Below are positions 5,452-42,576 of a stretch of DNA of 42,576 nt, piece by piece (within the stretch, counting starts at the first letter, position 1; every line of letters begins with the position of its first letter). Under the pieces are notes generated by a model that saw nothing but the letters and a program-made list of their open reading frames with translations, was not told where the DNA came from and searched no databases. The DNA is from a virus. A program made the translations under genes and the position numbers. The stretch lies in IMG/VR virus record IMGVR_UViG_3300009103_000064, positions 1 to 42,576 of that record; one strand, 5' to 3'.

Positions 5452-5482
5452 TTAGACTTACTGATATATTTAGTTAGTCTAA
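5452..5482 (-). promoter_or_regulatory. 31-base imperfect palindrome in the gp20 leader
   Basis: In the 58-base gap between gp19 and gp20, TTAGACT (5452-5458) pairs with AGTCTAA (5476-5482). After a T-T mismatch, ACT (5460-5462) pairs with AGT (5472-5474), leaving a 9-base loop, GATATATTT. No T-run follows on the minus strand, so it does not look like an intrinsic terminator. It could be an RNA hairpin in the gp20 leader, a processing site or a protein-binding site. A weak late-like CTAAATAT lies inside it. Confidence 0.5.
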
Positions 5483-5492
5483 TTATAGCATA

Positions 5493-6086
5493 TTAACCGT
5501 TAGGACCACCAGCTCCAGTCAATTTAAGGGACTGAACTTGGAATTCCACGGTAAATTCTTCAATTGTATCGCCAGTATCATAAGAAAGATCTATGTTAGA
5601 TACGGTTGTTGGGAATATATCAACAAATTCATACTCTTTTAGTACGACATTTGAATCCCCACTACTATCTGAACTTGACTTACTGGATCCTCTACCAAGT
5701 TGGAATACCTTGGCATTAGTCATATAAGCATTTGGATCAGTAGCACCAATGTTGGTATCTAGATCAGCAATCTGCTGAGTCCAATTCTCAAATGCATTTC
5801 TGATTCTGAAGTCTTCATCATTAATTACTGTAACAGTCCATGTATCAATGGTTCTGTCTCCAGCAACTTTAAAAATACGACCTCTGAACGGAACATCGAT
5901 GTTTGCGATATTCTGAGCAGGTAACGATGCACCTTTACATAAGAATTGGAAAATATCCGCATCCCAACCTGTTACTGCGTCGGGAAGTGTAGTAAGCTCT
6001 ACCTGAAATAGATTCGGTCTTGCACCGCCCCCAATAAGAGCAGATTTAAAATCCGAAATTGACTTGTTTGGTCTGGACGTTGCCAT
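5493..6086 (-). CDS. 19: Tail tube protein gp19
   Basis: Subunit of the inner tail tube through which DNA passes, stacked inside the gp18 sheath. The 197 residues compare with 163 in T4. The N-terminal region SDFKSALIGGGARPNLFQVEL (11-31), then PAQNIANIDVPFRGRIFKVAGDRTIDTWTVTVINDEDF with RNAFENW, are typical gp19 elements. A Ser-rich insertion (SSKSSSDSSGDS, about 134-145) and the following segment account for part of the extra length, and the C-terminus ends LKLTGAGGPNG. An excellent ribosome-binding site, AGGAGG, lies 9 bases before the ATG, fitting a very abundant protein. A near-consensus late promoter sits in the gap after gp18. Confidence 0.97.
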   Translation of the reverse strand: MATSRPNKSISDFKSALIGGGARPNLFQVELTTLPDAVTGWDADIFQFLCKGASLPAQNIANIDVPFRGRIFKVAGDRTIDTWTVTVINDEDFRIRNAFENWTQQIADLDTNIGATDPNAYMTNAKVFQLGRGSSKSSSDSSGDSNVVLKEYEFVDIFPTTVSNIDLSYDTGDTIEEFTVEFQVQSLKLTGAGGPNG

Positions 6087-6106
6087 TTAAATAATCCTCC
6101 TGTTGT

Positions 6107-6114
6107 TATTTAGA
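6107..6114 (-). promoter_or_regulatory. Late promoter for gp19
   Basis: TCTAAATA on the minus strand differs at one base from TATAAATA and lies 20 bases before the gp19 ATG, in the 35-base gap after the gp18 stop. It would allow tube production to be independent of the sheath gene. Confidence 0.55.
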
Positions 6115-6121
6115 GTTAGAA

Positions 6122-10095: not shown

Positions 10096-10283
10096 TACAT
10101 CATTTCACCAAACAAATGTTTATTGGGATCTTTGTTATTTAACATAAATTTTTTATCATGATCTATAGTTTTTCTTGTCATATCTAGGATTTTTTGTAAA
10201 TTCTCTGCTTTCTTCTTTAATGCTTCTATCTCTTTAGAAGACTCTAGGTCCTCCTGTTTGGAGGAGTGGTTCTCCTGGGTCAT
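10095..10283 (-). CDS. Small coiled-coil protein overlapping terminase region (62 aa)
   Basis: Unrecognised. From the ATG at 10283 the product has 62 residues. A GTG at 10316 would give 73 but would overlap the upstream gene by 83 bases, so I prefer the ATG (50-base overlap). The chain is highly charged and helical: a Ser/Glu-rich start (TQENHSSKQEDLESS) and a heptad-like EIEALKKKAENLQKILDM, then a polar end NKDPNKHLFGEMM. The stop overlaps the gp17 start (TAATG), so translation is probably coupled to the terminase. A packaging accessory role is inferred from position only. No clear ribosome-binding site is visible before either start. Confidence 0.65.
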   Translation of the reverse strand: MTQENHSSKQEDLESSKEIEALKKKAENLQKILDMTRKTIDHDKKFMLNNKDPNKHLFGEMM

Positions 10284-10689
10284 AGTCCGATACTTGGTAA
10301 TTCCAGAGACGTGCACCAGGATAAACTTTCTGCAACTGGTCGCGCACTTCTCTGCGTGAGGGGGTTTTGACGTGAGGGAAAAACATTTGAATGTTGTAGC
10401 TACTTCCTCTCCACGACAAATAAACAGTTATTATATTTCCCGTTCTTGGAGCAATTCGAGTGGATTCACTTACTCCTCCACCATTGCCACCATTAGAGCC
10501 GTTGCCGTTGCCACCATTACCATTGCCAGAATGGCCATTGCCATTTCCGTTACCGTTATTGGTCCCATTTTTCTTTTCCTCCTTATCACGCACAAGCCAT
10601 CCTAACCTAGTGGTATGATAACCACGAGGGATGGGTTTACATTTTTTATCATCATTACAATAATATTCACCAGGAGGGCATTTTTTCAT
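10234..10689 (-). CDS. Cys-rich/Asn-Gly-linker protein (151 aa)
   Basis: Three parts are visible. Residues 1-35 are a compact Cys-containing start (Cys4, Cys11, Cys17; MKKCPPGEYYC then KKCKPIPRGYH). Residues 41-72 are a nearly pure Asn-Gly linker. Residues 80-151 form a mixed alpha/beta domain with NIITVYLSWRG, MFFPHVKTPSRREVRDQL and KVYPGARLWNYQVSDYDPGEP. Proteins of this three-part form are, as I recall, conserved in T4-like cyanophages, but I know no assigned function. There is no signal peptide. A late promoter AATAAATA precedes it, and AGGAG lies 14 bases upstream of the ATG, which is rather far. The 3' end overlaps the small gene before gp17. Confidence 0.85.
   Translation of the reverse strand: MKKCPPGEYYCNDDKKCKPIPRGYHTTRLGWLVRDKEEKKNGTNNGNGNGNGHSGNGNGGNGNGSNGGNGGGVSESTRIAPRTGNIITVYLSWRGSSYNIQMFFPHVKTPSRREVRDQLQKVYPGARLWNYQVSDYDPGEPLLQTGGPRVF
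10474..10569 (-). repeat. Asn-Gly low-complexity repeat
   Basis: This stretch encodes residues 41-72 of the 151-residue protein, almost entirely Asn and Gly with single His, Ser and Thr residues. On the plus strand it reads as repeated CCATTGCC/CCGTTGCC hexamer-like units. Such a tract is prone to slippage, so its length should vary between related phages. Confidence 0.85.
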
Positions 10690-11850: not shown

Positions 11851-14800
11851 TTAACTGAGTGCTAGGATAAACGGTGTCATTTCTGAGAATAAACTCTTAG
11901 TGAAAGCTCTTCCACTAACTGTACCAGTTTCTTGATTGATTTGCAAATCTTCACCTATTCTAAAGTTACCTGCTTGGTCCGTACTGGTATAAAGAACCTT
12001 TCCACCATCTTCAAGATAAACTTCATTTTTCTGATTAAGAACTCCTCCTCGTTTTGGAGTAGCTTCAGTAATTGTATTACCAGCACCAACATATTCAAAT
12101 GTATGTGAACTAGCAACAATTCTACTTGCCTGAGAGAAGAATGCAGTAGATCCAACACCAACTGTATTAAGTAAATTACTGGCAAGTGTTAATGTAGTAA
12201 TTCCAGATGTAACTGGGGTCGAACTATTTATTACATAATAGATAGGATCCATTGACGCAGTGGCAGTTGCAGTGTTAATTCCTACATTAGGTCCTCCAAT
12301 TGTTACAGTAGGAGTTCCTTCATATTGATTTCCACTACTAATAATTGTGATTGATTTAATAGCTTCATCTTCTACAGTAGCATATGCAGAAGCAGTTTCT
12401 CCACTAGGTCCAGCAGGAGCATCTATAGTAACAGTCGGAGTAGAAGTGTATCCTGTTCCACCAGCACTAACCGTAATTTCTCTAACTGTTTTATAAAGCT
12501 TATCAAAATAAACCATTTGTCCATCATATGGTCTATCAACATCAATCTTTGCAGTACCAGCAGTTGCACCAGCACCTGCATAATAATGTTCTACTGTTGA
12601 AATACCAACATTAACTACAAACTTTGTAGTAGATGGAATTGAGTCAACAGTGAAAATATGAGGTCTTCTATAAGGATAAGTCTTTGATCCATATTCACAA
12701 GTTAATCCAATTCCTGCAAGAGTTACACCCATACCAACTTGGAAATCATGAGCAGCAGTTGTAGTAATGGTAGCAATACCAGTATTATTATCGTAAATAA
12801 AATTATTAATAGTCTTCTCAGGAGCATACGTATTTACATTTACCTCAACATCAGCTTGTGATATTGCTGCTGATGACGTAACAAAACCTGTGTATTGTAA
12901 ATCACTTACTCCTCTGGCAACTAGTCCATATGTACCAAAACTACAATTACTATTAGCAATGTCTGCTTGTCCACCTTTATCAACCTTAACTGCTTCCTGA
13001 CAGCAAATAGTAAACAATGAAACTAATTGTGCAAATCCACCATTAGTAACAGCAACTCCAATTCCACCCTGATTATATTGGGTGAAAGCATCGATATTCA
13101 TTGCTTTCAGAAGTCTTGCCTGATCACCATCAATATAACATCCAGTTCCAGTAGTAGTATCACTAGTACAGTTTTGAATATATGGTCCCTTCCACTTTCC
13201 ACCACCTACATTCTCTGCTATTTCATCAGTTGGGAAAGCAACAGCAGCTGCAGGAGCTTCATGATCCTTAAAGGTCATATTAGCTAATTTTGTTCCCTTT
13301 CTTACGTGGAAGATATCACTAGTAGTTGTAAGACCACTTACTTCTACAGTTCTTTGATCATCTCCTACAACAGAAACAAAAGCAGGAACTGAAATTGGAT
13401 TAGATTCTGCATATTTTCCAGAAAGAACTTTAACTGTTGTTCCTGATGATGCAGCACCTACTGCTGCAGAAATCGTTAAAAAGGCATTATCAATTGATGT
13501 TCCATTATTAGTATCAACACCATCCTTAGCAACATATAGAACATTGGGTGCAGAGTTAATACCAGATGCAGTAGCACTAATTGTTACACCAGTACCAATA
13601 GTAACAGCAGAATTAGTAATTACAACATCTTCATCACCAACTGTTATAGTATTGTTAACACCATCTATAGTAATAGATGCACTACCAACAGTTAGAATAC
13701 CCGTAACTCTTGCATCACCATCAACTAATAATGCAGTAGTTCCCACACCAATGTGGACTGTTCCTACTCCACTATTAGCCCCAAGAGTTGTAACACCTAG
13801 AATACTCGCATTGCGACGAATATCCAAATCACTCATACCAGTGATAATACCAACAGATTCAATATTCTTAACTGTTTCACTGTAAGTAGTACCACCAATG
13901 TGAACTACACCATCAAAATATGCTACATTATCATGAGTGTTTCCGGTACTAACATACAAAGCCCAATCTGATCTTGCAGTAGTCGCAATACCTACATTTT
14001 TAGTTGTATGAACACCAATAGAATTAGATGCCCAAGTTCCTCCAATTCCCGCACCAGCATCCCCTACATCCCACTTCTGTGTTGACGCATTCCATAAGAT
14101 AGTATCACCATCTTCTAATCCATCAATATTAACATCATCAAGATCCTTAAGGAATCCGGCACCACCGCCACCAATAGTATATAATTGTTGCTCAACTCTA
14201 TTAACAAATAATCTATAATTTGCTGCTAAATCTTTTAAAGTGGCAAACTCTTGATCTGTTGGAGTAAGAGGATCCTTACCTTGCTTAAGTTTTGGATCAG
14301 GAGTTAAAGGACGATCATTATATACTTCCTTTAATTCTTGCTGTTCACCCTTTATCTGTTCAACAATCTTATAAAGTTCACTAATATTAATTCCCCTATC
14401 TTCAACCTTATTTGTTAATGTGAAAAGATCTCTTTTTAATTCAACAATACTATCATCATAATTTTTTGGTTGAGGGAGATTATCAATTTCATTTTTTAAT
14501 CCTTCAAAATAATTAGTAATTGTTTTATTGGACTCATGATTATTATTATTAAATTCAAGTATCTGCTTCTCTAAATTTTGTTTTGTTTCATTAAGCTTAC
14601 TTAAAACTTGCTTCTTTAACTTTCTATCATCATCTTTAAATTGGGTATGATGATCCCATATTCTAATAGCAGATTCCTTTATCTCATGATAGATCTTATC
14701 TTTAGCTTCCTTTAAATTTTTCTTCAGTTCCTTAATTTCTACCCTATTTTCAAAATCTTTAGTATCAAGAGTTTCTGAAAGTGCATCAATATCCGAATCA

Positions 14801-15510
14801 AATTTAGTTTTAAGATCTTTTATATGATCCCCTACTTTAACAAAATCATCATCAATTACACTAAAAGTTTTTCCAATCCATGAAAAATCTGGAACTTCAT
14901 TAACTTTATTAACCCACTTGGGAAATGTAGGAATTTGACTTCTAACAGATTCAAGTTCTTCTTTTATAAATTGAAGATCATCTTCATAATATTTTGGTTC
15001 TGGTAAATTAGTAATTTCCTGTTGAATAAGATCAATTTTATCTTCAACACCATTTATCTGTTCATCATAATATTTTACCTCAGGTAAATTCTTAACAGAT
15101 TCCCTTACAAGATCAATTTGTTCACATATTGCTTCTACAGTTGGATCATAATCCTTTACTTCAGGAATACTCTCCTTAACATGTTCAATATGCTCAGAAA
15201 GTGCTTTCAGCTCATCATCATAATATTTTATTTCAGGAATATCAGGGATACTCTCGCGTAAATCATTTACCAGACGAATTAGTTCTGGCCATGGAGGAAC
15301 TATATCTTTAACTTCTACAAAACTATTTCCTTCAGCATCCTCAATAGTTTGAGTAGCTTCTTCTATTACTTCTTCTTCTTTTTCTGGTTCAACAAATTCT
15401 TCAACAGAAGGCAAATCCTCTGCGTCTTCTTCTGTTAAAAATTGATCAACCGATGGTAATTCATTAGAATCATCAAAATCATCTATTGACGGTAACTTGT
15501 CGTCAGGCAT
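11851..15510 (-). CDS. Fibre-like structural protein with coiled-coil stalk and beta-helix (1219 aa)
   Basis: A long multi-part protein. Residues 1-75 are acidic with three LPS[IV]xxF repeats (LPSIDDF, LPSVDQF, LPSVEEF). Residues 79-192 carry about four tandem 27-residue units built on [IL]PE[VIP]KYYD, and residues 200-395 are predicted coiled coil with another such unit. Residues 410-640 contain FLKDLDDVNIDGL and a series of VGIATT/GVTTLG beta repeats. From about 650 (NVLYVAKDGVDTNNG), repeated short strands suggest a right-handed beta-helix like pectate-lyase folds. Near 1015-1060 lie two GGxGYxxxPTVTI modules. The end (AGNFRIGEDLQINQETGTVSG then SLFSEMTPFILALS) resembles the C-termini of cyanophage fibres. 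A late promoter precedes it. Host contact or a structural spike is likely; the exact T4 counterpart is not identifiable. Confidence 0.9.
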   Translation of the reverse strand: MPDDKLPSIDDFDDSNELPSVDQFLTEEDAEDLPSVEEFVEPEKEEEVIEEATQTIEDAEGNSFVEVKDIVPPWPELIRLVNDLRESIPDIPEIKYYDDELKALSEHIEHVKESIPEVKDYDPTVEAICEQIDLVRESVKNLPEVKYYDEQINGVEDKIDLIQQEITNLPEPKYYEDDLQFIKEELESVRSQIPTFPKWVNKVNEVPDFSWIGKTFSVIDDDFVKVGDHIKDLKTKFDSDIDALSETLDTKDFENRVEIKELKKNLKEAKDKIYHEIKESAIRIWDHHTQFKDDDRKLKKQVLSKLNETKQNLEKQILEFNNNNHESNKTITNYFEGLKNEIDNLPQPKNYDDSIVELKRDLFTLTNKVEDRGINISELYKIVEQIKGEQQELKEVYNDRPLTPDPKLKQGKDPLTPTDQEFATLKDLAANYRLFVNRVEQQLYTIGGGGAGFLKDLDDVNIDGLEDGDTILWNASTQKWDVGDAGAGIGGTWASNSIGVHTTKNVGIATTARSDWALYVSTGNTHDNVAYFDGVVHIGGTTYSETVKNIESVGIITGMSDLDIRRNASILGVTTLGANSGVGTVHIGVGTTALLVDGDARVTGILTVGSASITIDGVNNTITVGDEDVVITNSAVTIGTGVTISATASGINSAPNVLYVAKDGVDTNNGTSIDNAFLTISAAVGAASSGTTVKVLSGKYAESNPISVPAFVSVVGDDQRTVEVSGLTTTSDIFHVRKGTKLANMTFKDHEAPAAAVAFPTDEIAENVGGGKWKGPYIQNCTSDTTTGTGCYIDGDQARLLKAMNIDAFTQYNQGGIGVAVTNGGFAQLVSLFTICCQEAVKVDKGGQADIANSNCSFGTYGLVARGVSDLQYTGFVTSSAAISQADVEVNVNTYAPEKTINNFIYDNNTGIATITTTAAHDFQVGMGVTLAGIGLTCEYGSKTYPYRRPHIFTVDSIPSTTKFVVNVGISTVEHYYAGAGATAGTAKIDVDRPYDGQMVYFDKLYKTVREITVSAGGTGYTSTPTVTIDAPAGPSGETASAYATVEDEAIKSITIISSGNQYEGTPTVTIGGPNVGINTATATASMDPIYYVINSSTPVTSGITTLTLASNLLNTVGVGSTAFFSQASRIVASSHTFEYVGAGNTITEATPKRGGVLNQKNEVYLEDGGKVLYTSTDQAGNFRIGEDLQINQETGTVSGRAFTKSLFSEMTPFILALS
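14935..15275 (-). repeat. Tandem ~27-residue coiled-coil repeats in fibre protein
   Basis: About four units of 75-81 bases encode [IL]PE[VIP]KYYD followed by a helical heptad segment (for example INGVEDKIDLIQQEI). On the plus strand the core appears as related blocks near 15225, 15148, 15070 and 14987, each containing TCATAATA or TCATAATC followed by a TTTTAC/TTC-rich stretch. A further diverged unit lies near 14460. Pro at the start of each unit suggests kinks between short trimeric helices. Confidence 0.75.
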
Positions 15511-29214: not shown

Positions 29215-32200
29215 CTATGTAACTTTATAGTTCTTATATTTAAGGGAAGCAGATCTTCTTACAACCATAGAAGTTGTAATTCCACCCACTCCTCCATCAG
29301 TATATGCATTATAAGAATTACTTTCAGATCGTGAAGGAAGAACAATCTTACCCCAACTATATGATCCAAAGTAATTACCAGTTTGAATTCCAACTCCACT
29401 GAAGGAAGGCCATTGACCACTCCAATCAAGATGCTCACCTATTTTCACAAATACCCTCTTCAGATGTGTAGTACCAATTCCTACTCCATTTGTATGAACA
29501 CCCGTAGGAGCTTGAACTATTTCAAAAGTACTAGCTTCATAAACATTATCTACAAATGCAGTACCAATTCCAATAGTAGCACCATCTGCAGCAAGGGAAG
29601 ATATAGTTGTTGTTGCAATACCAACAATAGAATCATTAACAACAAAGTAATCACCGGTACTAATTCCACTAATAGTAACTGCAGTTCCTGCAATAGTAGA
29701 ATTTCTCAAATCTGAAGCAAGTGGTATATGTAAATCAAAGACTAATTGATACCCTGTGGCAACTCCAACAGTAGTAGTACCAAATCCAACAATAATTCCT
29801 TCATCTCCAGTATAACTACTTATCTTATTCTCTTCCTCAGACCATGTTGGAGGACTAATAAGAACCATTGGTGGGTTAGAAGATGTATATCCTGCACCTA
29901 CACTTGTGATGGCAATACCAGTAATAGTTCCTGCAGAACCAATTATAGGAGTACCATAAGCATTAGTAGATGTAGTTCCAACACCAACTTCAGTTCCATC
30001 AATAGATGTTGTTCCAAAACTAACTGTTGCAGTACTATATCCAACACCACCATTAGAAATAATGACAGAACTAATAGTTCCTGCGATAGAAACTAAAGCA
30101 GTTCCTGCAGCACCAGTCTTATTCTCTTGAGAAATAAACTTAACTTTATTTTGGAAAGTAAAGTCAGCAGATGCACTTCCTAATACCTCATTCTGACCAT
30201 CAAAGAATGGTCTTAGACTTTCAACATAAACGATTGTTGATCCAATACCAACAGATTTAATAATACATGAACGAGGATTAATAACTGGCTCATAGATTTC
30301 TCTATCTTTACCAACACCTTTTTCATTAATAATTTTATCTTCAGTTTGTCTGCACCATTTTACAGGTCTTTCTAAATCAGAATCTCCAGTATTTCCTGGA
30401 CCATAATAAGAAGGTGTTTTAACAAGATCTGTAGAATCTACACTAAGTGGAACTCTAGCTGTTTCTTGTAACCATGTTGGTTGAGAATTCAAACGACCAA
30501 TAGTTAAATTATCACCTGGTTTAACAGTTTCTAAAACTAATCTTTCAATAACATCTTCAGATCCTGTTCCCTTATAGAACATAACATCTATAGTATCATC
30601 AATCTTAGGTGCCTCTGTAAAGGTAATTACGCTTCCACCTGAGAACTTATATCCTTTACCAGGAACTTGAGGAATATTATTAACAAAGACTAAGAGACAT
30701 TCTTGAACATCGATCTTAGACCCTTTCTTAGCTACAATAGACAGAGTATCTCCACCAACCGTCATTGGGAAATCAACTCTACTTCCATCAATATATCTTT
30801 CCATATTGTCTAGAGTTTGAAGTTGTCCAACAGACCATCCAGTAAATTCATCCCTGAATACTTTCTCTATATCAATCTGGAATTCTACAAATGTTTTACT
30901 TGGATCAGTTGGAATACCAGCATTTCCACCAATAGGAACAGTTAGAATCTCACCATTGCCATAACCACTTCCTGTATTAGAAACTGTAAATGAAATTACA
31001 CTAGATCCTTGACCCACTACAATATCAATTTCTGCACCAGTTCCTACACCACTAACAGAAGAAGAACTATAACTTAAACCAATTCCAGAATAGGAAAGTG
31101 GATCATCAAAGACGACCTCTGAATATCCATTAACAACTCCACCTCTAGCATAAGCATGATTTCTAGATGATACCCCACTATTAATTTCAAATGACTTAGA
31201 ATCAACAATACGTACAACTTCACTACTGGTTCTAGCAGGATCTGCTTCCACTAAACCACGCCCACTTGCTCTAGGAGCAACGATAGCAGCTTGACATGAA
31301 CCATATCCAACATAATAAGTAGGAACTGTGGATACTCCAATATTACATTCAAATGTCGTAGTTCCTACACCAACAGCAGTAACTTCAGTTCCAGAATAAT
31401 AAGGATCTGGCTTTCTAGGATACTTATGAACACTTGCATAATTGTCCCTAGAACATCTGAACGATAAAGCTTCTGTATCAATCTTAATACTTGTTCCAGT
31501 AGTCAATCCATGCAAAGAACCATCACTACCAAGTGTCATCGTTAAGATGCCAGCAGATGCACTGTATACTGCAGTAGAAATATTATAATTTACTATTGTA
31601 GATACACCTACATTAATAGAGAATGCATTAGTAGATGCAGAAGTTATTGAAGTACTTCCATATCCTACAATAGGATCATCAGCACGAGGATAAGAATGTA
31701 AGGTAGAATAATCATCCATCGAACATCTAAAGACTAAGCTACTTTGAGCAACAGAAACATAATTTGAAGTAGTAAGTCCATGATTGGCAAGAGTAAATGT
31801 TACAATACCACTTGGTCCATCATAAGTAGCATTTGTAGGAGTATATCCTAGTCCAGAAGAAACCTCGGTAACTGCACCATTAGTAATACTTACAAATCTA
31901 TGACTATAATCTCCACCAGTAATTACTGCATTACTTGAAGCACTTACAAATTTATGAACGAATTGATCTCCAGGAGCACCATATCCAACATCAACAGTAA
32001 TAGTAGTATTAGACGTACCAACAATATTCACTGAAGTATTATATGCTCTATCTTCTCCTCTAGGATAGTAATGAATATTTGCTCCAGCATCTAAAGAACA
32101 TGTAAATCCTAATCCAGTAAAGATAACAACACTCTTCTGACCTGTTGTTGACAACCCATGACCTACTGCAGTTGTAACAGTCATAATGCCTGAACTGTTA

Positions 32201-35200
32201 TCATAAACAGCAGTGTAAATTCCTACCCTACCAGCATAATCACAAGTGAAAGCAATACCAGAAACTGTAACTTCATCACCAGAAGATAATCCATGATTAG
32301 TCTGTGTAGTAATGGTTGAGATACCCGTTACAGAACTATAACCAACATTAGCAACCTTTCTAGGTGAATAGAATAGGTGACTCATATTAGTAACAGCAAT
32401 ACCTGTAATATGACCAGTAGTAATTTGTGCTGTTCCAATTCCAATTACATTGGTTCCAGTACGACTGAGAGTCTTAATACCAACATTAACAGTTTGAATT
32501 CCTGCTCTATATCCAGATCCTGTATTACCAATACTAACAGACTTAATAGTACCACCAGCAGAGACTGTAACAGTTCCTCCTGCTGCTACAAGAGGTTGAT
32601 AACCAAATCCTTCTGTAGATCCAACTGAAACAATGATTCCACCCATAGGAAGAGTTCCTACATTAGCTGCTCCTGGAACTGAAGATCCAGTACCAGTGAA
32701 AGTAATTGTAGTAACTCCTGCTGTTCCTTCTTCTAAGGTATATTCGTTAGTGGATCCAGGAGTCTGGAAAATATCATTAATAAGAATAATAGCATTATCA
32801 GTGGTGAGTCCAGATACATTAGATTGTTCAGACTGTAAAGTGAAGGCATCTTTTTGTCCAGTAAACTGAGATGAAAGACTATCAAAGATATAATTTCTAT
32901 AGTAAGATTCATTAGCAGTATCTGGAACTCCAGAACGCATAAACATTCTTCCCTGGAAACTAGATCCAGTTGCAATACCTACCCAATCTCTATCATCTGG
33001 TGCATTTGTAGAACTACTAATAGGAAGAAGACCATATGGAGCCTCAACAAAGTTTATAGTGTTATCAACAATATTATAATTACCATCAACTTTAGTAACT
33101 AAGGTTCCCGTTCCATATCCTGCTAAAGCAGTTCCTGCCCAAGGTCTCTTAACTCTAATTTGATTAGCACTTGTGCCAATACCAATGGCATCAAGACGCA
33201 TTATCTCACTACCAATTTGAACTAAATCTGAACCATAGAAAGAAGTAATTCCAGCAAAATTAATCGTATCATCAGTTGTAAGTACACTATCAATTAAATG
33301 TGTAGTAACCGATGTTGATACGATAGGAGATTGAATAAGATTATCAATAGCAACCATAACTCTTGCGTTTTGGTTGATTGTATTAAATCTATGAGAAGTA
33401 CCAATACCAACACTAGTAATATCTACTACTTCAGGAACAGTCTTTAATGCTTTTTCAGCAGTCTCTGCAAGTTTAATAGTATCATCATCAATCTTAACAA
33501 CCCAAAGATCCCCAGGAAGTTTATTTGTTGTGCCCACCCCAACAAATCCATTTGTAGTCGCAATACCGACTGCCATTGTTTTACCAGTGCCAGCATGGTT
33601 ATAAGTAATCTTTTCTCCAGTAACGAAGAAGTGGTTTGGTAAAATAACAGTATTATTAGCAGCACTGATTATAGCACTATCACTACCATCAAATTCTTTT
33701 TCAAAAATAGGATCATCTCTATGCTCTAATGGGAAAGCTCTCTTAATATCACTTTCTGTTCCGCTATATTCTCCAAATCCGGATTGAATATAACCATTTC
33801 CTAGATCAACTACACTCTTACTATCATCAGCAATCTTTAATGCATTCATATACACATTAACTTGTGTATTAATACTTGCATTAGGTGTAAAGAGAATTGA
33901 AACAGTTCCTGATGAATCGCACTTAGAACCAAGAGTTCCAAGACCAGCATTACCAGAATAAACATTAGCCCATTCAGTATCAAAGGTTTCTGTTGTTTCA
34001 CCACTTTCAAAGTCAGTTACAACAACAAATTCAGAGAATTGATATGCTTGATTAGTGGCATCTGTAACCTGAATGAAGCAATAAGCACATTCATAATCAG
34101 AACTAAACTGAGCAACTGTATTAATTCCTGGAGATCCAGCTGCAGCAATACCAGTTGTGTTGCATTGAAGTTTTGCATGATTAAGATCAACTGTTCCTAT
34201 GCCAGTAGATGTAGAATCTCCCATGGCAACAACAGTAGTGTTAATTACTCCAGTTGTACCAATACCAACATCAGAATTAGGAATGAAATCAATTTTTAAG
34301 TTTGATCCATCAATATAACCACGGAATGTTCCCATTCCAGAAGTAGCCCAGCTATCTGGAGTGGTAATCATTCTACCCCATTCCATGACCTCAACTTCAT
34401 CTCCATTATGAACAATATTCAGTTGAGTATACTCATATTCATTATATTCTTGATCAGGATTAATAGCTACCATTACCTTGGCAGATCTATAAGTGCTAGC
34501 AATACCTACAACCGTTGTAGTTCCTATTCCAGATAAAGTAACACTTTCATTATCAATTAAAGAAGGTCCAATAACAGTACTTCCTGCAGTTAATAAATTA
34601 TCATCTAAATTGTAAGAAAGATTAGCAATCCAATAATCATTAACCGCATATCTCTCAGGATAAAAGACTAATTGCCCTTCACTACCTGCAATACTGAAAT
34701 CAAATGATCCTTGATCATATACAGTTTCAACTCTTCCATATTGATTAATATATGATAGACTTCCATCATGAAGAATATCAACAATCATTAATTGTCGTTG
34801 AGCAGTAAATCTCTTATCTCTTACATAAGTAATATACTTTAATGCTCTTCTATCAGATAAAGTAAATGTATCAACTACACTAAATCTAGTTGATCTTGGT
34901 AAATGATTAAATGTTCCACTAAAATCATTAATAGAAACAACCCTATTACCAACAGATTCTGAATAATCTTGTAAAATGCGATTAGAGAATGTTATTTCAT
35001 TTGATAAAGTATTAGATCCAATTGTTAAAGCATTTTCTTTTACTAAGTCAAAATCATATACACAATTTGTATCACCAATACTATACAAATCATTAACAGC
35101 ACTAACATCTGTTAATTCAGTTGATAATCCAACAACTAAAGATTGTTTGTTATCGGGAAGTGCTTCTAATTGATAATCAGAAAATTTCTTAAATCCTAAA

Positions 35201-38200
35201 GTATGATTAAGAGTAGAAACAGGATCATTCCATGTATCCATATCTACTCTAGATCTTATTGAATATGAAAGATTTTGATAATAATCACTATCCTGAATTC
35301 TCTGCAAACTCTTATTAAAGAATCCCGAATCTGTTTCCCATCCACTTTCTACTCTTGAAGACGCATCGGTAATAAGGTAAGAATCAAATGATTTTATAGA
35401 AGATGCAACTCCTTGAGTTTTAGAAGATAATCCTTCAATAACATCATTAATAACAAAATCATCATTGGAAGAAACTCTTAAGATTCCTGTATTAGGATAC
35501 CAATTCTCGACTGTTCCTGTTGTACTACTAATAGATCCAACAACAGTTTCACCATCCACAAAATCATTGGGTTTTAACTTAACATCAAATAATGGGAAAT
35601 ACTTCTCTGGAACTATTCTACCAGCTGAATTAATTGAATCAAATTGTCCTGGTGTAAGTTCAGGAGCCATCTCACTTGTAAAGTAATCAGAAAGGTTATA
35701 AGTAACGGTTCCAATTCCACCATAATTCTGATCAACTGCAGTTAAAGTGAATAATTTATATCCATAATCTTCAGAATTATATCCTCTTGCCGTTGTACCA
35801 ACTCCAACTCCAATACCTTCAACAAATACATTATCACCCACTCCAAATGGGAAGGAATCAGCAGTACTAAATCCAACAGATAAAGTAACAGTTACGTCTT
35901 TAGAGACCGTATTAAATCCAACTGTACTAATTCCTACACCATTAGAGTTTCTGTCAGGAATAATTTTAGGTGGTGTATTAGTAATGCCATAAGTATTCTT
36001 TAAAATTTCTACTTCAGGATTACCGAGTGTATATCTAAGATCAATATCTGAAATTACTTTATTAGTTTTTCCATCCAATACCACCAATTCAGGTGCAGAA
36101 ACATATCCTCTTCCAAAAGAAGATACCCCAACAGATTCTACAGAAGTAAGAGCTTCAATTTTAACAATCTGAGGTAAAGCAACACTTGGTTTTATTGTAG
36201 TATCAGATGGGAAATTATATCCAATATCATTTATTTTTACTTTCTTAATTTTACCAATTGAAGTACTTTGTGCTTCAAGAACTGCACCACTTCCAACTGC
36301 AGTTGTAATAGTTGTAATACCAGGAAGATTGCGATAATTTGCTCCTTGATTGTCTATTACTAACTTCGATATCGATCCATATGCATTAATACTATTAGTT
36401 GTATAAGATAGATTAGATGTTGACCCATAAGAAACTCTTTCGGGAATAACATTTAATGTATAAGTAAACTGATTAGTAGCAGCTACCGTAATTTTTTGTT
36501 TTCCGTTATAATTACTCTCTACTACTTGAAGTTCATTTCCAGCAACAATATCCGGATCTACATCAATTTGTGCTTTTACAGTTGGAAGAGTACTTTCATA
36601 AACTGGATCAAATTTGTAGAATAATATTTCTGGTATATTCTCAGTAACTGATACCGTTACTTTAGCATCTGTTGATACACCAGGTTTTCCATTTCTAACA
36701 ACATTAAATGTACTGTCTCTCTTAGAGGTATCCCAAACCTTAGTAAAGTTTTCATCAGTATATAAATTTAATCTGAATGCAGGATAATCTGTAGATTGAT
36801 GACTATATCCTAAAGAAGAATGTGAAAGATCAAAAATAACATCCTGGTTCTTATATCCTTTTACTGAAGGGTTAATTGGATTAATAGTTCCCGTAGAAGT
36901 ATCAGCAACTCCAACAACATTTGGTTTTAACTCTGTTGCCTCATGATAAGTATTAGCTAATTTAAAGGTATCATCATCAACTTTTATTATGTAATAAATT
37001 GCATTATCTGTAAGACCTTCACAAGGAGAAGAAGATGTATGAATAATTTTCTCACCAGTTTTAAATCCGTGGTCAGTTATGGTAAATGCATTTGTAGTAG
37101 TATTAACTCCAGCTGCAGTAAATGATTTTGGATCTATTACAATTCTTCTATTATAATCATTATACTGAACCACAAAGGTGGTTGATAGACCTGGACTTAC
37201 ATCCATATGAACATCATCATTATTCAACAATCCATGAGTTTGGGCTGTTGCAACAGTAACCTTAATTCTATTAGCTTCTGCTGTTATAGGACTAAAATTA
37301 GTTTTAAAGCTATGGTATACACCTGTACCAATACCAGAGAAGAAGACCGTTGTAGAGTCCCTCTGTGTGCTTGCAATGCCCACAAAAGTACCAGTAGTAC
37401 CCATACCTACCTTACAGGTGGATATACCCACTAGATCTGCTGAGATCACAGCAGCAAAAACTGATTGTCCATCTACTAAAGTGGTTATTCCAGATGCAGC
37501 TCCTGCTTTACCAGATTCCCATATAGTAATACCAGATCCATTATTTGGAGAATATGTTAATTTATCCCCTGTCTTTAATTGGTGTTTTGGAAGATAAATT
37601 GCTTTACTCTGTATAAAGAGTTCTGTTATTCCTACTCCAGGATTTGTAAAGACAATTGTTGATCCAATACCAACTCCAGATAAAGTAGATACACCAACAG
37701 AATCAACTGGATTGAAATAATATTGTTTGTTTATTCTATAATCATAAGTTGAATTAAATCCAGCATTTACTGTAATCTTTCTTGGATCTTCAAGAAGTTC
37801 TGTAGTTACTGTATGAGAAACTCCCGTAACTCCATTAACAGCTCTCAGAACTCTAATTCTTGATAAAAGAGGTTCTACATTTAATACTTTTACTTGTTCT
37901 GTTCCAATACCAAGAATATCATTTTCCCTAATCTTAGTATCGACTAAATCACCCTCAACATCAAAGTGAGTAACTATTCCAGTAGCACCATCAGTTCCAA
38001 TTGCAACAGATGTTGTTCCAACTCCAGTTAAAGAAAGACGATTTGAACTAATACCAGCAACATAACTACCTTCAATTTTAGATGATGTTGTAGATAGTCC
38101 TGTAATAGTAATTACATCTTGATTAATCCAATTATGAGGTTCATCAGAAATAATTTGATATCTTCCTTTTTGCTCTGAAGGATATATTTCAACACTACTT

Positions 38201-41200
38201 AATGTGCTCGTAGCAGCACTTACACTACTTACATGCTTACCCAGAAGTCTTTGAACTTTAGCATCAACAAGTGATCCATCAGTATCAGTATTATCAAAAA
38301 CTAATTGATCATGAACTTTATAATTAATTCCTCCAGTTACAATTCCAATACTCTCAACAGAACCAGTTTCTACTCCTTTAATATCTACAGTTTGAGATAA
38401 CTGATTAGGAATAGGCATATAAGGATAATTAAGATCCCCTTCCACCAAATTATAAGGAGTAGTAATTCTACACCAATCAGACTTTTCTAATTCATATTGG
38501 TCTTGATTAGAACGAGAATTGAAGTTAAATTCAAGTGGTGTTGATTGATAATTATGACCAATCAAATATGGGAATACTGGTAATTTAAATGTATTAAACT
38601 TACCACCTTGTTCTGCTCCTCCATCACTAATTGTTGCAAAATATGCATATGTTCCACTAGGATATTCTGGTGTAATACAGAATCTTCCATTATTTTCATC
38701 AAGAATAGTTTCATCATTTACTTGCTTATAAGTAAAGTCTTCAATAAAGAATCCTGCAGGGAATACACTTAAAGATGGTCTATTTTCCTTAATTGCTGCT
38801 TCTTGAATATAACCAGATTTCATCTGGCCTACTGTACCACCAGCTTGTTTAATATAACCGTAAGGACCATATATCGGATTTCCATCATAGGCCCATCCAA
38901 TAATAGGAGAATGATTTTCCGAAGGAGATTCTATCCCATTAACCTTCCTTAAATCAGGTTGACCATATAAAGAGTTTCCTTCTTGATTAACTGCATATAC
39001 AGATTCTCTAAGCTTTCTAGGAGCATAAAGATGAGCATATTGAAGATCATAATTACTATTCAATCCTTTTTTAATAAATCCATCATCATCAACTATCTGT
39101 TCAGTTTGATAATATTTTTCAAATAGGTTTACATTCCATTTTTGAATATTAGAACGAAGATTTACTCCACTTCCCGCAGAAACTACATCAACAGTTGTTC
39201 CTGATGCACTATATCCAGCACCTTGCTCAATTACCTTAACTTCGTCTATAACATACTGAGTGGTAGTTCCTATCCCCACAGTCTTCATGACGGGTGTAAG
39301 GACGGCACCAGTACCATCTCCATCTACCACTATATCTGGTGGGGAATTATATTCCGTACCACCATTTACAACATAAGCAGCAATAATTTTTCCTTGGCTA
39401 ACAGTAACCGAAACTTGTCCATTAACTCCTGAAGATAAAGTTACTTGTGGTTCTTTAACAAAATTAACAACCTCGGATGAACCATAACCAACACCCTTAT
39501 CCTCTAAATGAATTGATGTAATTTCACCTCGGAATATAGGCTGAATTTCTGCTTCAAAAGTATGTACTCCTATAGAATCTATCCCTACTTTACCAATTAA
39601 AGTTACATTAATATCTTGATAGTTAAAGATATGAGTTCCTACACCAACCGTTTCTAAATTACGATATTGTTGAGTATTATAATAAAAATCCTTAGCAGTT
39701 GTTCCTACACCAACACTGGATAATTTAAAATTATCATTATCAATCTTTGTAACATAAAAATCAGTAGAAGTAGTAAGACCTGTTATAAAAGTACCATTAC
39801 ATGTATAATTAACAATCTCTCCAGATTCATAATCATGATTATCAATATTAATTTGATTTAATGCTGTATTAATTCCTGCAGGAGTAGCAGTTCTTTTCTT
39901 ATTTTGATATCCAGTTCCACCAGATAATATATTAATAGATCCTATAATTGACTTTTTATTAATAGATTTTAAATATTGCTTTCCTATACCAAAGGAAGTT
40001 AATTCAACAGTATTGATACCAGATCTAGCACCAGCTTCTGTTGTATGTAATCTTACTGTAGATGGACCTACCTGAGAAACAAAATAATGTGCATCTGTTG
40101 TTAATCCACCAACAACAGTTTGGCCTCCTGTAACATATACAACTTCCTCAGCATTTCTAAATTTATGATACGTACTAAATCCAATTGTTGATGGAAGACT
40201 TTGAGAATAAGAAGATCCTACAGTGGTTCCTAAACCAACTTTTGTGTTTATTGCTGCATCAAATGAAACAGAATGTTCCACCAATTGCATATTAACAGAA
40301 GCTCTAGCATCTGATCCATTACCACCTGTAATTTTTATTGTTGGAGGTGCTTCATAATCAAAACCAGGATTAAGAAGTCTGAGTTCTTGTAAAGATCCAG
40401 AAACAGCAACATATCCAGTACCTCCTACACCAATAGAATCACTAATATTCAAAAAAGGAGGATTAATTACATCATAATCCCCTCCAGGAGCAAGAACATC
40501 AATACTTTCTAATTTTCCATAATGAACTTGGTCATATGACTTATAATTTAAAATTTCTACTCCATTAACTAATATACCTGTTGTTCCAGGAGTAGTTTCA
40601 TCTACTGTACCAGTATCAATTGGAGGAGTAACTTGTCTTAAAAGCTTTTGTGATTGTAAAGTCTTATTATTAAAATCGTATGGTCCTATTTTGTTATCTG
40701 TTACAATTCCCGTATTAGTATTACTATTGACAGAAACAAATATACCATTGGCAAGATTAGTTCTACTCTTAGCAAATTTTAATGTTGTTTCGTTTACTCT
40801 TTGAACAAAATATAAACCTTCATCATCAACATCTCCATCAAATAATCCAGATCTTACTTCAAAATTGTCTATAGAAGTTCCACTGGTAGGATCAACAAAA
40901 GGATTGTTAACTATTTGAGGAGTATAATATACTGCATCTCCAGTATAGAATCCATGGTCTACAACAGGAACCCCAGTAGGAGTAGTAGTAGAATTTGTTA
41001 TAACTTTAAATTCATCACCACTAAAGGTTCCATCAAATATAAATTCTCCTCCAGCAAGTCCTAAAGTTTGAGCACCATATGTTGGAATAGATGATGAAGC
41101 AACTAAAAGATCTGATGAACCTTTCTTTTGATATACATTTTGAACGTTTGTAGCATATACAGCAGCACCAGGATAATTAATGGCATTAGATTTTAAAATC

Positions 41201-42576
41201 TGCCTTTCAATAGTAAATGTCTTACTAACATCAATTTCTCCTTGTCCTTTTAATATAATTGACTTATCAGAAGTTATTTGAGTGATATTGGAAATTGGTA
41301 AAGCAATACTATCATTTCCAATAATGACTGCTTTATCTCCAATCTTAAAATCATGAATTACATTTAAATTAACTTCATATGTCCAATCTGAAGAATCTTT
41401 AAGAACTATATTGTTTACCTTATAAACTGGTGCAATATTATAGAACCAATCACTTGCTTTAAATCCTGTATTACCAACACCTAAAGTCTTAATATGAGCA
41501 GTATCACCAGATCCATATAAACAATTATTTCCAGAGAATTCAAGACTATTAAGAACAGACGTAATTCTTACTTCAATTGTTTCATCTGGATTTACAGAAG
41601 ATTTACCATATGCAAAAGTATTAATACCAATAGTAGATTGATCTGAAATTGTTTTACCAATACCAGTTAATCCAAAGAATTGAGTTAGGTTTTTAGAAGT
41701 ATAAGAACTTACTCCTACTGTATTATCAACATAATTAAAATACAATTCTCCAGTTGTACCAAATCCTACTGTAGAATCAACATCAATAACGGTAATTCCT
41801 GCTCCTACTTCACCAATTAATTTAGTTCTGGGATGAACATGGAAAGTACCATAAGTAACACCCTGTACTCCACTATCTCTATTATATCCAGCATCTATAC
41901 TAAACTTATAAAATGTTGTTCCAGCACTAACTTGAATTTTCTCTATGTCAGTAATAGGAGCATATGCCTTATTAAAAATTTCATCATATCCATCTTGATA
42001 TAAAGTAGAAAATTCTAAATCTTCAGGATTGCCGTAAATAGGTTCTACTACAAAATCATTTGTAATTTTATAATTAGCATTAGATGGTGTGAAAAGGAAT
42101 TCTGACGGTCTTACAATTTTTACATTTTCATTATATAAAGCTTTAAATAGAATTTCAAAACCCCTATCTGTTCCTTTACTTAGATAGAAATCTTTTGCTT
42201 GCTTTATAAAAACATTCTGATTCAGATTTGCTGTAAGAGTTCTTCCTTCAAAACCTGGTGTAAGTTGATGTTTTGTTTTAACTAAAAATTCTTTAAGGAA
42301 AAGAGAACTTAAATTTTGTACAATATCTCCTTTATTATGCTCTTCTGCATCTGTAGACTCAAAAACTAATTCTTCTGGATTGGTAGGACTTGTATATGAA
42401 GTAATACCACTAAATCCCCTAACACATCCAGTAAAGGCAAAAGTGGTTATTCCTGTATATGTAATAATCTCATCATTGATTTTCAGTAATCCATAAGAAT
42501 CTGGGAATCCCAAAGTTCCTGTAGGATACTTTTTCATATCAACTTCAATGGTCTCACTAGTGATACCAACAGATGC
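29215..42576 (-). CDS. 7: Giant gp7-like baseplate wedge protein (at least 4453 aa, start beyond window)
   Basis: The frame is open to the right edge (ASVGITSETIEVD precedes the first in-window Met), so the true start lies outside. T4 gp7 has 1032 residues; this has at least 4453. The N-terminal part fits the gp7 type: GLLKINDEIITYTG, GCVRGFSGITSY, NLSSLFLKEFLVKTK, TPGFEGRTL, NVFIKQAKDFYLSKGTDRGF and ILFKALYNENVKIVRPSEFLF. A YHYH-like domain lies at about residues 1180-1370. Many beta modules follow: GxGYxxxP repeats (over a dozen), six HGFxTGDxVxY units, GEExLxVxR units, and three Cys-Asp-His-YPR repeats near residues 3490-3725. No frameshift is seen. It precedes gp8, as T4 gp7 does. Function beyond wedge assembly is unknown; host contact by the repeats is possible. 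Confidence 0.88.
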   Translation of the reverse strand, partial: ASVGITSETIEVDMKKYPTGTLGFPDSYGLLKINDEIITYTGITTFAFTGCVRGFSGITSYTSPTNPEELVFESTDAEEHNKGDIVQNLSSLFLKEFLVKTKHQLTPGFEGRTLTANLNQNVFIKQAKDFYLSKGTDRGFEILFKALYNENVKIVRPSEFLFTPSNANYKITNDFVVEPIYGNPEDLEFSTLYQDGYDEIFNKAYAPITDIEKIQVSAGTTFYKFSIDAGYNRDSGVQGVTYGTFHVHPRTKLIGEVGAGITVIDVDSTVGFGTTGELYFNYVDNTVGVSSYTSKNLTQFFGLTGIGKTISDQSTIGINTFAYGKSSVNPDETIEVRITSVLNSLEFSGNNCLYGSGDTAHIKTLGVGNTGFKASDWFYNIAPVYKVNNIVLKDSSDWTYEVNLNVIHDFKIGDKAVIIGNDSIALPISNITQITSDKSIILKGQGEIDVSKTFTIERQILKSNAINYPGAAVYATNVQNVYQKKGSSDLLVASSSIPTYGAQTLGLAGGEFIFDGTFSGDEFKVITNSTTTPTGVPVVDHGFYTGDAVYYTPQIVNNPFVDPTSGTSIDNFEVRSGLFDGDVDDEGLYFVQRVNETTLKFAKSRTNLANGIFVSVNSNTNTGIVTDNKIGPYDFNNKTLQSQKLLRQVTPPIDTGTVDETTPGTTGILVNGVEILNYKSYDQVHYGKLESIDVLAPGGDYDVINPPFLNISDSIGVGGTGYVAVSGSLQELRLLNPGFDYEAPPTIKITGGNGSDARASVNMQLVEHSVSFDAAINTKVGLGTTVGSSYSQSLPSTIGFSTYHKFRNAEEVVYVTGGQTVVGGLTTDAHYFVSQVGPSTVRLHTTEAGARSGINTVELTSFGIGKQYLKSINKKSIIGSINILSGGTGYQNKKRTATPAGINTALNQINIDNHDYESGEIVNYTCNGTFITGLTTSTDFYVTKIDNDNFKLSSVGVGTTAKDFYYNTQQYRNLETVGVGTHIFNYQDINVTLIGKVGIDSIGVHTFEAEIQPIFRGEITSIHLEDKGVGYGSSEVVNFVKEPQVTLSSGVNGQVSVTVSQGKIIAAYVVNGGTEYNSPPDIVVDGDGTGAVLTPVMKTVGIGTTTQYVIDEVKVIEQGAGYSASGTTVDVVSAGSGVNLRSNIQKWNVNLFEKYYQTEQIVDDDGFIKKGLNSNYDLQYAHLYAPRKLRESVYAVNQEGNSLYGQPDLRKVNGIESPSENHSPIIGWAYDGNPIYGPYGYIKQAGGTVGQMKSGYIQEAAIKENRPSLSVFPAGFFIEDFTYKQVNDETILDENNGRFCITPEYPSGTYAYFATISDGGAEQGGKFNTFKLPVFPYLIGHNYQSTPLEFNFNSRSNQDQYELEKSDWCRITTPYNLVEGDLNYPYMPIPNQLSQTVDIKGVETGSVESIGIVTGGINYKVHDQLVFDNTDTDGSLVDAKVQRLLGKHVSSVSAATSTLSSVEIYPSEQKGRYQIISDEPHNWINQDVITITGLSTTSSKIEGSYVAGISSNRLSLTGVGTTSVAIGTDGATGIVTHFDVEGDLVDTKIRENDILGIGTEQVKVLNVEPLLSRIRVLRAVNGVTGVSHTVTTELLEDPRKITVNAGFNSTYDYRINKQYYFNPVDSVGVSTLSGVGIGSTIVFTNPGVGITELFIQSKAIYLPKHQLKTGDKLTYSPNNGSGITIWESGKAGAASGITTLVDGQSVFAAVISADLVGISTCKVGMGTTGTFVGIASTQRDSTTVFFSGIGTGVYHSFKTNFSPITAEANRIKVTVATAQTHGLLNNDDVHMDVSPGLSTTFVVQYNDYNRRIVIDPKSFTAAGVNTTTNAFTITDHGFKTGEKIIHTSSSPCEGLTDNAIYYIIKVDDDTFKLANTYHEATELKPNVVGVADTSTGTINPINPSVKGYKNQDVIFDLSHSSLGYSHQSTDYPAFRLNLYTDENFTKVWDTSKRDSTFNVVRNGKPGVSTDAKVTVSVTENIPEILFYKFDPVYESTLPTVKAQIDVDPDIVAGNELQVVESNYNGKQKITVAATNQFTYTLNVIPERVSYGSTSNLSYTTNSINAYGSISKLVIDNQGANYRNLPGITTITTAVGSGAVLEAQSTSIGKIKKVKINDIGYNFPSDTTIKPSVALPQIVKIEALTSVESVGVSSFGRGYVSAPELVVLDGKTNKVISDIDLRYTLGNPEVEILKNTYGITNTPPKIIPDRNSNGVGISTVGFNTVSKDVTVTLSVGFSTADSFPFGVGDNVFVEGIGVGVGTTARGYNSEDYGYKLFTLTAVDQNYGGIGTVTYNLSDYFTSEMAPELTPGQFDSINSAGRIVPEKYFPLFDVKLKPNDFVDGETVVGSISSTTGTVENWYPNTGILRVSSNDDFVINDVIEGLSSKTQGVASSIKSFDSYLITDASSRVESGWETDSGFFNKSLQRIQDSDYYQNLSYSIRSRVDMDTWNDPVSTLNHTLGFKKFSDYQLEALPDNKQSLVVGLSTELTDVSAVNDLYSIGDTNCVYDFDLVKENALTIGSNTLSNEITFSNRILQDYSESVGNRVVSINDFSGTFNHLPRSTRFSVVDTFTLSDRRALKYITYVRDKRFTAQRQLMIVDILHDGSLSYINQYGRVETVYDQGSFDFSIAGSEGQLVFYPERYAVNDYWIANLSYNLDDNLLTAGSTVIGPSLIDNESVTLSGIGTTTVVGIASTYRSAKVMVAINPDQEYNEYEYTQLNIVHNGDEVEVMEWGRMITTPDSWATSGMGTFRGYIDGSNLKIDFIPNSDVGIGTTGVINTTVVAMGDSTSTGIGTVDLNHAKLQCNTTGIAAAGSPGINTVAQFSSDYECAYCFIQVTDATNQAYQFSEFVVVTDFESGETTETFDTEWANVYSGNAGLGTLGSKCDSSGTVSILFTPNASINTQVNVYMNALKIADDSKSVVDLGNGYIQSGFGEYSGTESDIKRAFPLEHRDDPIFEKEFDGSDSAIISAANNTVILPNHFFVTGEKITYNHAGTGKTMAVGIATTNGFVGVGTTNKLPGDLWVVKIDDDTIKLAETAEKALKTVPEVVDITSVGIGTSHRFNTINQNARVMVAIDNLIQSPIVSTSVTTHLIDSVLTTDDTINFAGITSFYGSDLVQIGSEIMRLDAIGIGTSANQIRVKRPWAGTALAGYGTGTLVTKVDGNYNIVDNTINFVEAPYGLLPISSSTNAPDDRDWVGIATGSSFQGRMFMRSGVPDTANESYYRNYIFDSLSSQFTGQKDAFTLQSEQSNVSGLTTDNAIILINDIFQTPGSTNEYTLEEGTAGVTTITFTGTGSSVPGAANVGTLPMGGIIVSVGSTEGFGYQPLVAAGGTVTVSAGGTIKSVSIGNTGSGYRAGIQTVNVGIKTLSRTGTNVIGIGTAQITTGHITGIAVTNMSHLFYSPRKVANVGYSSVTGISTITTQTNHGLSSGDEVTVSGIAFTCDYAGRVGIYTAVYDNSSGIMTVTTAVGHGLSTTGQKSVVIFTGLGFTCSLDAGANIHYYPRGEDRAYNTSVNIVGTSNTTITVDVGYGAPGDQFVHKFVSASSNAVITGGDYSHRFVSITNGAVTEVSSGLGYTPTNATYDGPSGIVTFTLANHGLTTSNYVSVAQSSLVFRCSMDDYSTLHSYPRADDPIVGYGSTSITSASTNAFSINVGVSTIVNYNISTAVYSASAGILTMTLGSDGSLHGLTTGTSIKIDTEALSFRCSRDNYASVHKYPRKPDPYYSGTEVTAVGVGTTTFECNIGVSTVPTYYVGYGSCQAAIVAPRASGRGLVEADPARTSSEVVRIVDSKSFEINSGVSSRNHAYARGGVVNGYSEVVFDDPLSYSGIGLSYSSSSVSGVGTGAEIDIVVGQGSSVISFTVSNTGSGYGNGEILTVPIGGNAGIPTDPSKTFVEFQIDIEKVFRDEFTGWSVGQLQTLDNMERYIDGSRVDFPMTVGGDTLSIVAKKGSKIDVQECLLVFVNNIPQVPGKGYKFSGGSVITFTEAPKIDDTIDVMFYKGTGSEDVIERLVLETVKPGDNLTIGRLNSQPTWLQETARVPLSVDSTDLVKTPSYYGPGNTGDSDLERPVKWCRQTEDKIINEKGVGKDREIYEPVINPRSCIIKSVGIGSTIVYVESLRPFFDGQNEVLGSASADFTFQNKVKFISQENKTGAAGTALVSIAGTISSVIISNGGVGYSTATVSFGTTSIDGTEVGVGTTSTNAYGTPIIGSAGTITGIAITSVGAGYTSSNPPMVLISPPTWSEEENKISSYTGDEGIIVGFGTTTVGVATGYQLVFDLHIPLASDLRNSTIAGTAVTISGISTGDYFVVNDSIVGIATTTISSLAADGATIGIGTAFVDNVYEASTFEIVQAPTGVHTNGVGIGTTHLKRVFVKIGEHLDWSGQWPSFSGVGIQTGNYFGSYSWGKIVLPSRSESNSYNAYTDGGVGGITTSMVVRRSASLKYKNYKVT
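31402..32106 (-). repeat. Three Cys-Asp-His-Tyr-Pro-Arg repeats in the giant protein
   Basis: Copies at 32050-32106 (FTCSLDAGANIHYYPRGED), 31672-31731 (FRCSMDDYSTLHSYPRADDP) and 31402-31461 (FRCSRDNYASVHKYPRKPDP). All share F-x-C-S-x-D, then His six residues after the Asp, then x-Y-P-R and an acidic end. They are spaced 125 and 90 residues apart. A degenerate copy, FTCDYAGRVGIY, lies at 32216-32250, without His-x-YPR. Each is preceded by a GI[LV]T[MF]T...HGL turn. Confidence 0.85.
38480..39030 (-). other. YHYH-like domain within the giant gp7-like protein
   Basis: The core HSPIIGWAYDGNPIYGPYGY (Trp-Ala-x-Asp-Gly-x-Pro-Ile-Tyr-Gly) and later DENNGRFCITPEYPSGTYAY are the landmarks of the YHYH family. 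At the place where the family has Tyr-His-Tyr-His after Gly-Thr, this copy reads Tyr-Ala-Tyr-Phe, so the name-giving His residues are lost. The flanking blocks (PRKLRESVYAVNQ; LPVFPYLIGHNYQSTP) are typical of cyanophage versions. Confidence 0.75.

Follow-up and report, generated by a model that had tools for sequence, protein, structure and literature searches.

The DNA analysed here is the viral record IMGVR_UViG_3300009103_000064 of IMG/VR, taken as one window over its full 42,576 nt. A giant open reading frame (ORF) on its minus strand encodes a gp7-type baseplate protein that contains a tandem array of a repeated unit, the subject of this study. This unit is a real and strongly conserved domain without an entry in Pfam or NCBIfam, and it lies here in an insert at a hotspot of gp7. 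The record carries T4-like structural genes, among them those for the portal gp20 (PF07230), the prohead protease (PF03420), the terminase large subunit, gp8 and the gp7-type giant protein, and no end repeats were found in it; it is probably a fragment. Counted from the first ATG, the giant ORF (29215-42537) encodes 4,440 residues. Its frame is still open at position 42576, the contig end, and its PHROG match begins at profile position 90, with about 70-90 N-terminal residues missing (42537-42576 region) relative to Bellamy gp7 and phrog_2885. Because the ORF runs off the contig, the gp7 residue numbers used below are too small by about 70-90.

The giant protein was assigned to the cyanophage type of gp7, in agreement with the preliminary description of this DNA, which had called it a baseplate protein. 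It matched phrog_2885, "baseplate wedge subunit", over its full length (3716 bits, residues 7-4435 to profile positions 90-4178), and gp8 (PF09215) adjoins it in the contig. Orthologs with 35-57% identity were found in six isolates (Bellamy, S-SM2, SynMITS9220M01, P-TIM68, S-B05 and S-SCSM1), the nearest being Bellamy with 56.5% identity across 3,443 residues. The gene order gp25-gp6-gp7-gp8-VrlC is common to this contig and the cyanophage loci of the gp7 "baseplate wedge initiator" (Bellamy, S-SM2, S-SSM7 and P-SSM4). In the isolates checked, gp7 comes after gp6, and gp8 is next to it or beyond one or more intervening genes; the order next to gp8 and a VrlC-type protein is repeated in the six isolate gp7 loci (L097-L102). 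The T4 gp7 has been reported to be absent from marine myophages and apparently replaced by VrlC (PMC7029224), and therefore the name gp7 is used here on the basis of the PHROG match, the record annotation and the gene order. No relative of the whole gp7 was found by sequence in the PDB. A YHYH domain (PF14240) was also observed inside gp7, at residues 1205-1303 (38629-38925, E 1e-21); in a comparison of marine myophage structural proteins, YHYH was counted among the putative carbohydrate-binding or host-recognition domains (PMC7029224).

The pattern F-x-C-S-x-D-x5-H-x-Y-P-R, of which the preliminary description had reported three clear copies in an otherwise Cys-poor protein, occurs exactly three times in gp7, at residues 3478, 3603 and 3693. 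None of 2,000 composition-preserving shuffles contained even one match (expected number 3e-9), and Cys accounts for only 21 of the 4,440 residues, so that both observations held. The actual repeat proved to be larger than the 16-residue motif, since a full unit spans about 80-85 residues with the consensus A-x-Y-x3-[ST]-G-x-x-T-x-T...H-G-[LF]...F-x-C-x-x-D...YPR-x-x-DP...[TF]-x-V-N-V-G. When the three copies were aligned, 22 columns were invariant, including A-x-Y, G-I, H-G-L and L-x-F-x-C-S-x-D...H-x-Y-P-R-x-x-D, and copies 2 and 3 shared 39% and 43% identity with copy 1. A profile built from the three copies found them again at E 3e-41 or better, and found a half-unit at 7e-6. The three full units together occupy 31330-32223, whereas the interval first proposed, 31402-32250, reaches into the half-unit at one end and splits unit 3 at the other.

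The half-unit (residues 3394-3440) had been taken for a fourth copy that lost its His-YPR part. C3432-D3433 is present and H-YPR is indeed absent, but the half-unit is preserved as such in five other viral contigs (L002, L003, L004, L013 and L022; "SGIAFTCDYSPxLGI"), and half-length matches recur in other arrays, where successive starts are spaced 29 and 45 residues; it has therefore not decayed recently here. Units 1 and 2 are separated by a linker with a short second repeat, whose fuller form, H-x-F-[VI]-S-[AI]-x-x-x-x-A-V-x-x-G-G-x-Y, is present in other arrays too. The coordinates of all features are collected in Table 1.

Table 1 Features of the gp7 array and of the related unit in the window; bit scores are those of the unit hidden Markov model (HMM), E-values those of the three-copy profile.
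Feature	Position	Strand	Description
gp7, giant baseplate wedge subunit	29215..42576	-	4,453 in-frame codons; 5' end cut by the contig end
Inserted block	31117..32385	-	about 423 residues holding the unit array; alignment gap in all six isolate orthologs
Half-unit	32218..32358	-	GYSSVTGISTITTQTNHGLSSGDEVTVSGIAFTCDY, without H-YPR; HMM positions 2-44, 32 bits
Unit 1	31978..32223	-	FTCSLDAGANIHYYPR at 32059-32106; E 3e-41; 79 bits
Linker, units 1-2	31843..31977	-	short second repeat H-x-F-V-S-[AI]...GGDY: HKFVSA at residue 3528, HRFVSI at 3546
Unit 2	31600..31842	-	FRCSMDDYSTLHSYPR at 31684-31731; E 4.9e-43; 90 bits
Unit 3	31330..31584	-	FRCSRDNYASVHKYPR at 31414-31461; E 7.5e-45; 81 bits
Divergent single unit	12598..12813	-	in tail-fibre ORF 11851-15510; LTCEYGSKTYPYRRP; E 5.7e-5; 36 bits

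Comparison with the six isolate orthologs showed that no unit is present in any of their gp7 proteins. In this contig the left conserved flank ends with ...GHITGIAVTN and the right flank restarts with VVFDDPLSY, and the 424 residues between them correspond to 13 residues in Bellamy and in SynMITS9220M01, about 12 in S-SCSM1 and about 16 in S-B05. Bellamy reads SVAITN-PGTGYTSTEPPV-VIFDDPISY at this place, the intact site being "AITNPGTGYTSTEPPVVIFDDPISY". In P-TIM68 and S-SM2 the site is filled otherwise, with about 103 and more than 100 residues, respectively, of unrelated-looking sequence. We read this site as an insertion hotspot of gp7, of which the unit array would be one filling. The GC content of the insert is the same as that of its flanks, giving no compositional sign of a recent foreign origin. 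In contrast to the six gp7 proteins without an array, the gp7-type proteins of MED4-213, P-SSM4 and S-SSM7 contain larger arrays than the one here, with 7, 16 and 18 HMM matches, respectively, partial ones included. In S-SSM7 (L087:7917-27011) gp7 is apparently divided between two ORFs that flank another structural gene; the first matches the N-terminal part of the contig gp7 and the second, which has the 18 matches, the C-terminal part.

To determine how widely the unit occurs, an HMM was seeded with the three copies; its first round returned 551 domain matches, and the fourth brought the number to 649, from 81 loci. When the locus set was enlarged, viral contigs and phage loci together yielded 794 distinct units of nearly full length, of which 378 were non-redundant at 70% identity. 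Distances between successive unit starts group around 84-88 residues, and a second group, at 29 and 45 residues, represents half-units; up to 26 matches, full and partial, were found in one ORF. Among annotated phage records the unit was present in 325 of 50,697, at 877 places, and all 325 are named Synechococcus, Prochlorococcus, Cyanophage or Marine virus. When 84,980 bacterial and archaeal genomes were scanned with a strict pattern, and with no more sensitive method, there was a single match, apparently by chance; it was rejected, being only 48 residues long and lying on the opposite strand to a gene that reads as an apparent GTPase. In the collections searched, the unit is thus apparently restricted to marine cyanophages.

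The unit also occurs outside gp7. S-SCSM1, which has none in gp7, has five HMM matches in its long tail fibre, and the window itself contains a divergent single unit in an ORF that matches phrog_17885, tail fiber protein. In this unit, LTCEYGSKTYPYRRP, the hairpin is shortened, and it is possibly an intermediate between an endosialidase-like barrel and the full unit. A further small ORF of the window (10234-10689) is Cys-rich at its N-terminus (MKKCPPGEYYCNDDKKCKP) and then has a Gly/Asn-rich tract, and its sole match was a PHROG of unknown function over the first 40 residues.

In profile searches no Pfam or NCBIfam family covered the unit, which bears out the earlier remark that no named family has this signature, and no paper describing the repeat was found in the open-access literature. 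Four PHROGs (1276, 701, 5342 and 18802; virion structural, tail fibre and unknown) were each matched by 102-104 of 105 units, phrog_1276 by 104 of them, with unit 2 at E 8.7e-12. Three of these PHROGs group giant proteins (3,007-6,136 positions), and phrog_1276 has 325 positions; none of them sets the ~80-residue unit apart as a domain or attaches a function to it.

The structure of unit 2 was then predicted by AlphaFold2 with 105 aligned units, which gave a predicted local distance difference test score of 85.2, a predicted template modelling score (pTM) of 0.73 and six strands, at 8-12, 17-21, 40-43, 52-55, 68-73 and 77-81. The viral structures matching this model were cyanophage proteins (E down to 1e-8), and the fold therefore recurs in separately made models, albeit from related sequences. 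The best Foldseek matches in the PDB were the endosialidases 4hiz (probability 0.97, template modelling score 0.48, E 0.27), 3gvj and 1v0e, together with the first catalytic cysteine half-domain (FCCH) of Uba1 (6dc6 and 2v31). In agreement with Foldseek, the most frequent weak Pfam matches of the units were the endosialidase barrel and E1 FCCH, and an hhalign comparison with seven endosialidase barrels gave P 2.8e-5 over 25 columns around HGLxxGDxV. These structure and profile matches suggest that the unit is a small beta-barrel, which may be described as an endosialidase-type barrel with an added hairpin that bears the Cys-Asp-His-YPR signature. Matches found by sequence in the PDB (TAL effector, carbonic anhydrase, CTP synthase and antibodies) were regarded as chance, being very short, sub-threshold or scattered over unrelated folds, and a model of the four-copy block was poor, its Foldseek matches being dismissed as meaningless.

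We consider it fairly probable that the unit is a shuffled beta-barrel module, that the array forms an exposed, variable arm in contact with the host, and that the motif locks a core hairpin. The ~80-residue barrel would then be an interchangeable block of the large baseplate and tail-fibre proteins of marine T4-like cyanophages. In this phage 3.5 copies, in a cassette of about 420 residues, are set into a conserved region of gp7, and in related phages the site is empty or holds another insert, or, in others, many more copies are present in gp7-type proteins. The array would probably be a length-variable arm that projects from the baseplate wedge, and we infer that it is exposed on the baseplate surface. 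Such an arm could help the phage to contact the surface of the cyanobacterium, as the related-looking endosialidase barrel binds capsule sugar, and host contact by the array is made more plausible by the insertion, the copy-number pattern and the units in tail fibres.

The barrels might instead be an inert spacer or scaffold that only determines how long or how stiff gp7 or the fibres are and carries no ligand. Such a role would suit the wide differences in copy number among relatives, the existence of truncated units and half-units, and the resemblance of the most conserved residues to residues of the fold and not to an exposed binding patch. However, the insertion at this site varies between lineages, relatives having an empty site or another filling, the same domain occurs in tail fibres, which suits a host-facing part, and the nearest structural relative binds a capsule glycan (PMC12632334), which together make a pure spacer less likely.

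The conserved Cys, Asp, His or Lys, Tyr-Pro-Arg and Asp-Pro are predicted to sit on one hairpin, formed by beta3, beta4 and the following loop. In HMM numbering the motif residues are F38, C40, D43, H49, Y51, P52, R53, D56 and P57. Across the 378 non-redundant units, conservation was 99% for C and P, 91% for Y, 90% for F, 88% for R and D56 and 84% for D43, figures that support selection instead of drift, as first suspected. Position 49 was H in 66% and K in 22% of units. Direct coupling analysis (DCA) outlined the hairpin (couplings 37-48, 37-50 and 39-45) and connected the motif residues with each other (40-51, 40-53, 43-51, 49-53, 49-56 and 51-56), so that Cys, Asp and His, whose convergence in a structure model had been raised as a check, probably do come together. 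The share of hydrophobic residues or Cys is 100, 100 and 99% at positions 36, 38 and 40 and 96% at position 51, with 37 and 39 polar. This alternation leads one to expect the Cys side chain to point into the barrel, and Cys40 is likely to be a buried core residue. D43 was absent from 16 of 78 otherwise canonical units with K49 versus 8 of 224 with H49 (Fisher p 1.3e-5, an optimistic value because the units are related), which fits a donor-acceptor contact between positions 43 and 49; the association may come partly from a loop-length subfamily, "FGGASGxAAxKxYPR", present among the arrays. The motif residues would thus most likely serve internal packing and a network of hydrogen bonds and salt bridges that fixes the elaborated hairpin to the barrel, in effect a hairpin lock.

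The preliminary description had proposed a metal-binding or disulphide role for the same residues, and neither found support. A fold-stabilising metal ion (e.g. Zn) held in every unit by its Cys, Asp and His would agree with their conservation, their place on one predicted hairpin and the DCA couplings between motif positions, but the K that replaces H is mixed with H in 48 of the 66 ORFs having at least five distinct full units, and the complete set of C, D, H and YPR is retained in only 223 of 378 units. Loss of one ligand should release the others, so that a metal site would decay as a set; Cys instead persists where His (125 of 129 units), Asp43 (56 of 60) or YPR (45 of 49) is missing, and we regard a metal site as improbable. 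Least probable of all is a disulphide or thiol cross-link that would join the single Cys of a unit to a Cys of an adjacent unit or chain in mature virions. In its favour, Cys belongs to the most invariant residues and is retained whether or not the other motif residues are, and in the tail of phage Milano every component is cross-linked by disulphides (PMC10811340). Against it, arrays such as this one can have an odd number of full units, linker lengths vary, few units have a second Cys (153 of 170 have exactly one) and the Cys fits the inward-facing, hydrophobic alternation of its strand.

Several points weigh against the module and hairpin-lock explanation that we favour. The PDB matches from Foldseek were not significant by E-value, even the best (0.27), the endosialidase profile match covered only 25 of about 90 columns with a probability of 74%, and AlphaFold2 modelled the four-copy block at low confidence (pTM 0.38). 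Some of the DCA signal and of the H/K-D association may come from subfamilies of units and not from direct contacts, and ordinary packing in a core does not require a Cys to be kept as strictly as this one, at 99%.

Marine cyanophages are abundant. The way in which picocyanobacteria are recognised by the very large baseplate and fibre proteins of these phages is poorly understood. In a proteomic study of the S-SM1 virion, 18 of the 41 structural proteins were hypothetical (PMC3037559). With the domain defined, portions of numerous proteins in the 325 records, labelled "structural" or "hypothetical", can be annotated, the gp7 hotspot marks off variable arms from a conserved wedge core, and the unit offers a tractable construct of about 85 residues for structure and binding studies. 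As a tentative extension, these arrays of a previously undefined beta-barrel might constitute a cyanophage-specific adhesin cassette, shuffled between gp7 and tail fibres, expanded or lost at hotspots and acting as a modular glycan-binding arm. If that were true, an invariant Cys with a His/Lys-Asp network would be an undescribed way to lock a beta-hairpin.

Two known barrels resemble the unit. E1_FCCH (PF16190), from the ubiquitin-activating enzyme, is a similar small barrel in Foldseek, but it has a different function and the sequence match was not significant: gp7 scored 12.3 bits (residues 3405-3428, E 0.18) against a gathering threshold of 29.5 bits, and two of 105 units matched weakly. 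The cyanophage hairpin motif is not known to occur in E1_FCCH.

The endosialidase beta-barrel (PF12195) of the K1F, CUS-3, K1G and phi92 tailspikes is of similar size, about 83 residues, and has the segment T-x-I-x-x-H-G-L-x-x-G-D-x-V in common with the unit (the hhalign match above). Its gathering score was not reached in searches with the units, 3 of 105 of which matched at E <= 0.1 (best 0.0073), unit 2 and the whole gp7 having no match. The unit HMM does not pick up the K1F endosialidase, so the relatedness is argued solely from profile-profile and fold comparison, by which common descent of the two barrels is plausible. The aligned endosialidase barrels lack the Cys-Asp-His-YPR hairpin, and K1F has a single stretch matching the barrel, whereas the units here stand in tandem arrays. 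The endosialidase barrel is inserted in a beta-propeller, unlike the array, as no beta-propeller or sialidase domain was found in gp7. The PF12195 barrel belongs to a phage protein that contacts the receptor; in K1F it bears a polysialic-acid binding site, and loops near this site influence the discrimination among K1 hosts (PMC12632334). By analogy, one may speculate that the cyanophage array contacts a glycan as well.

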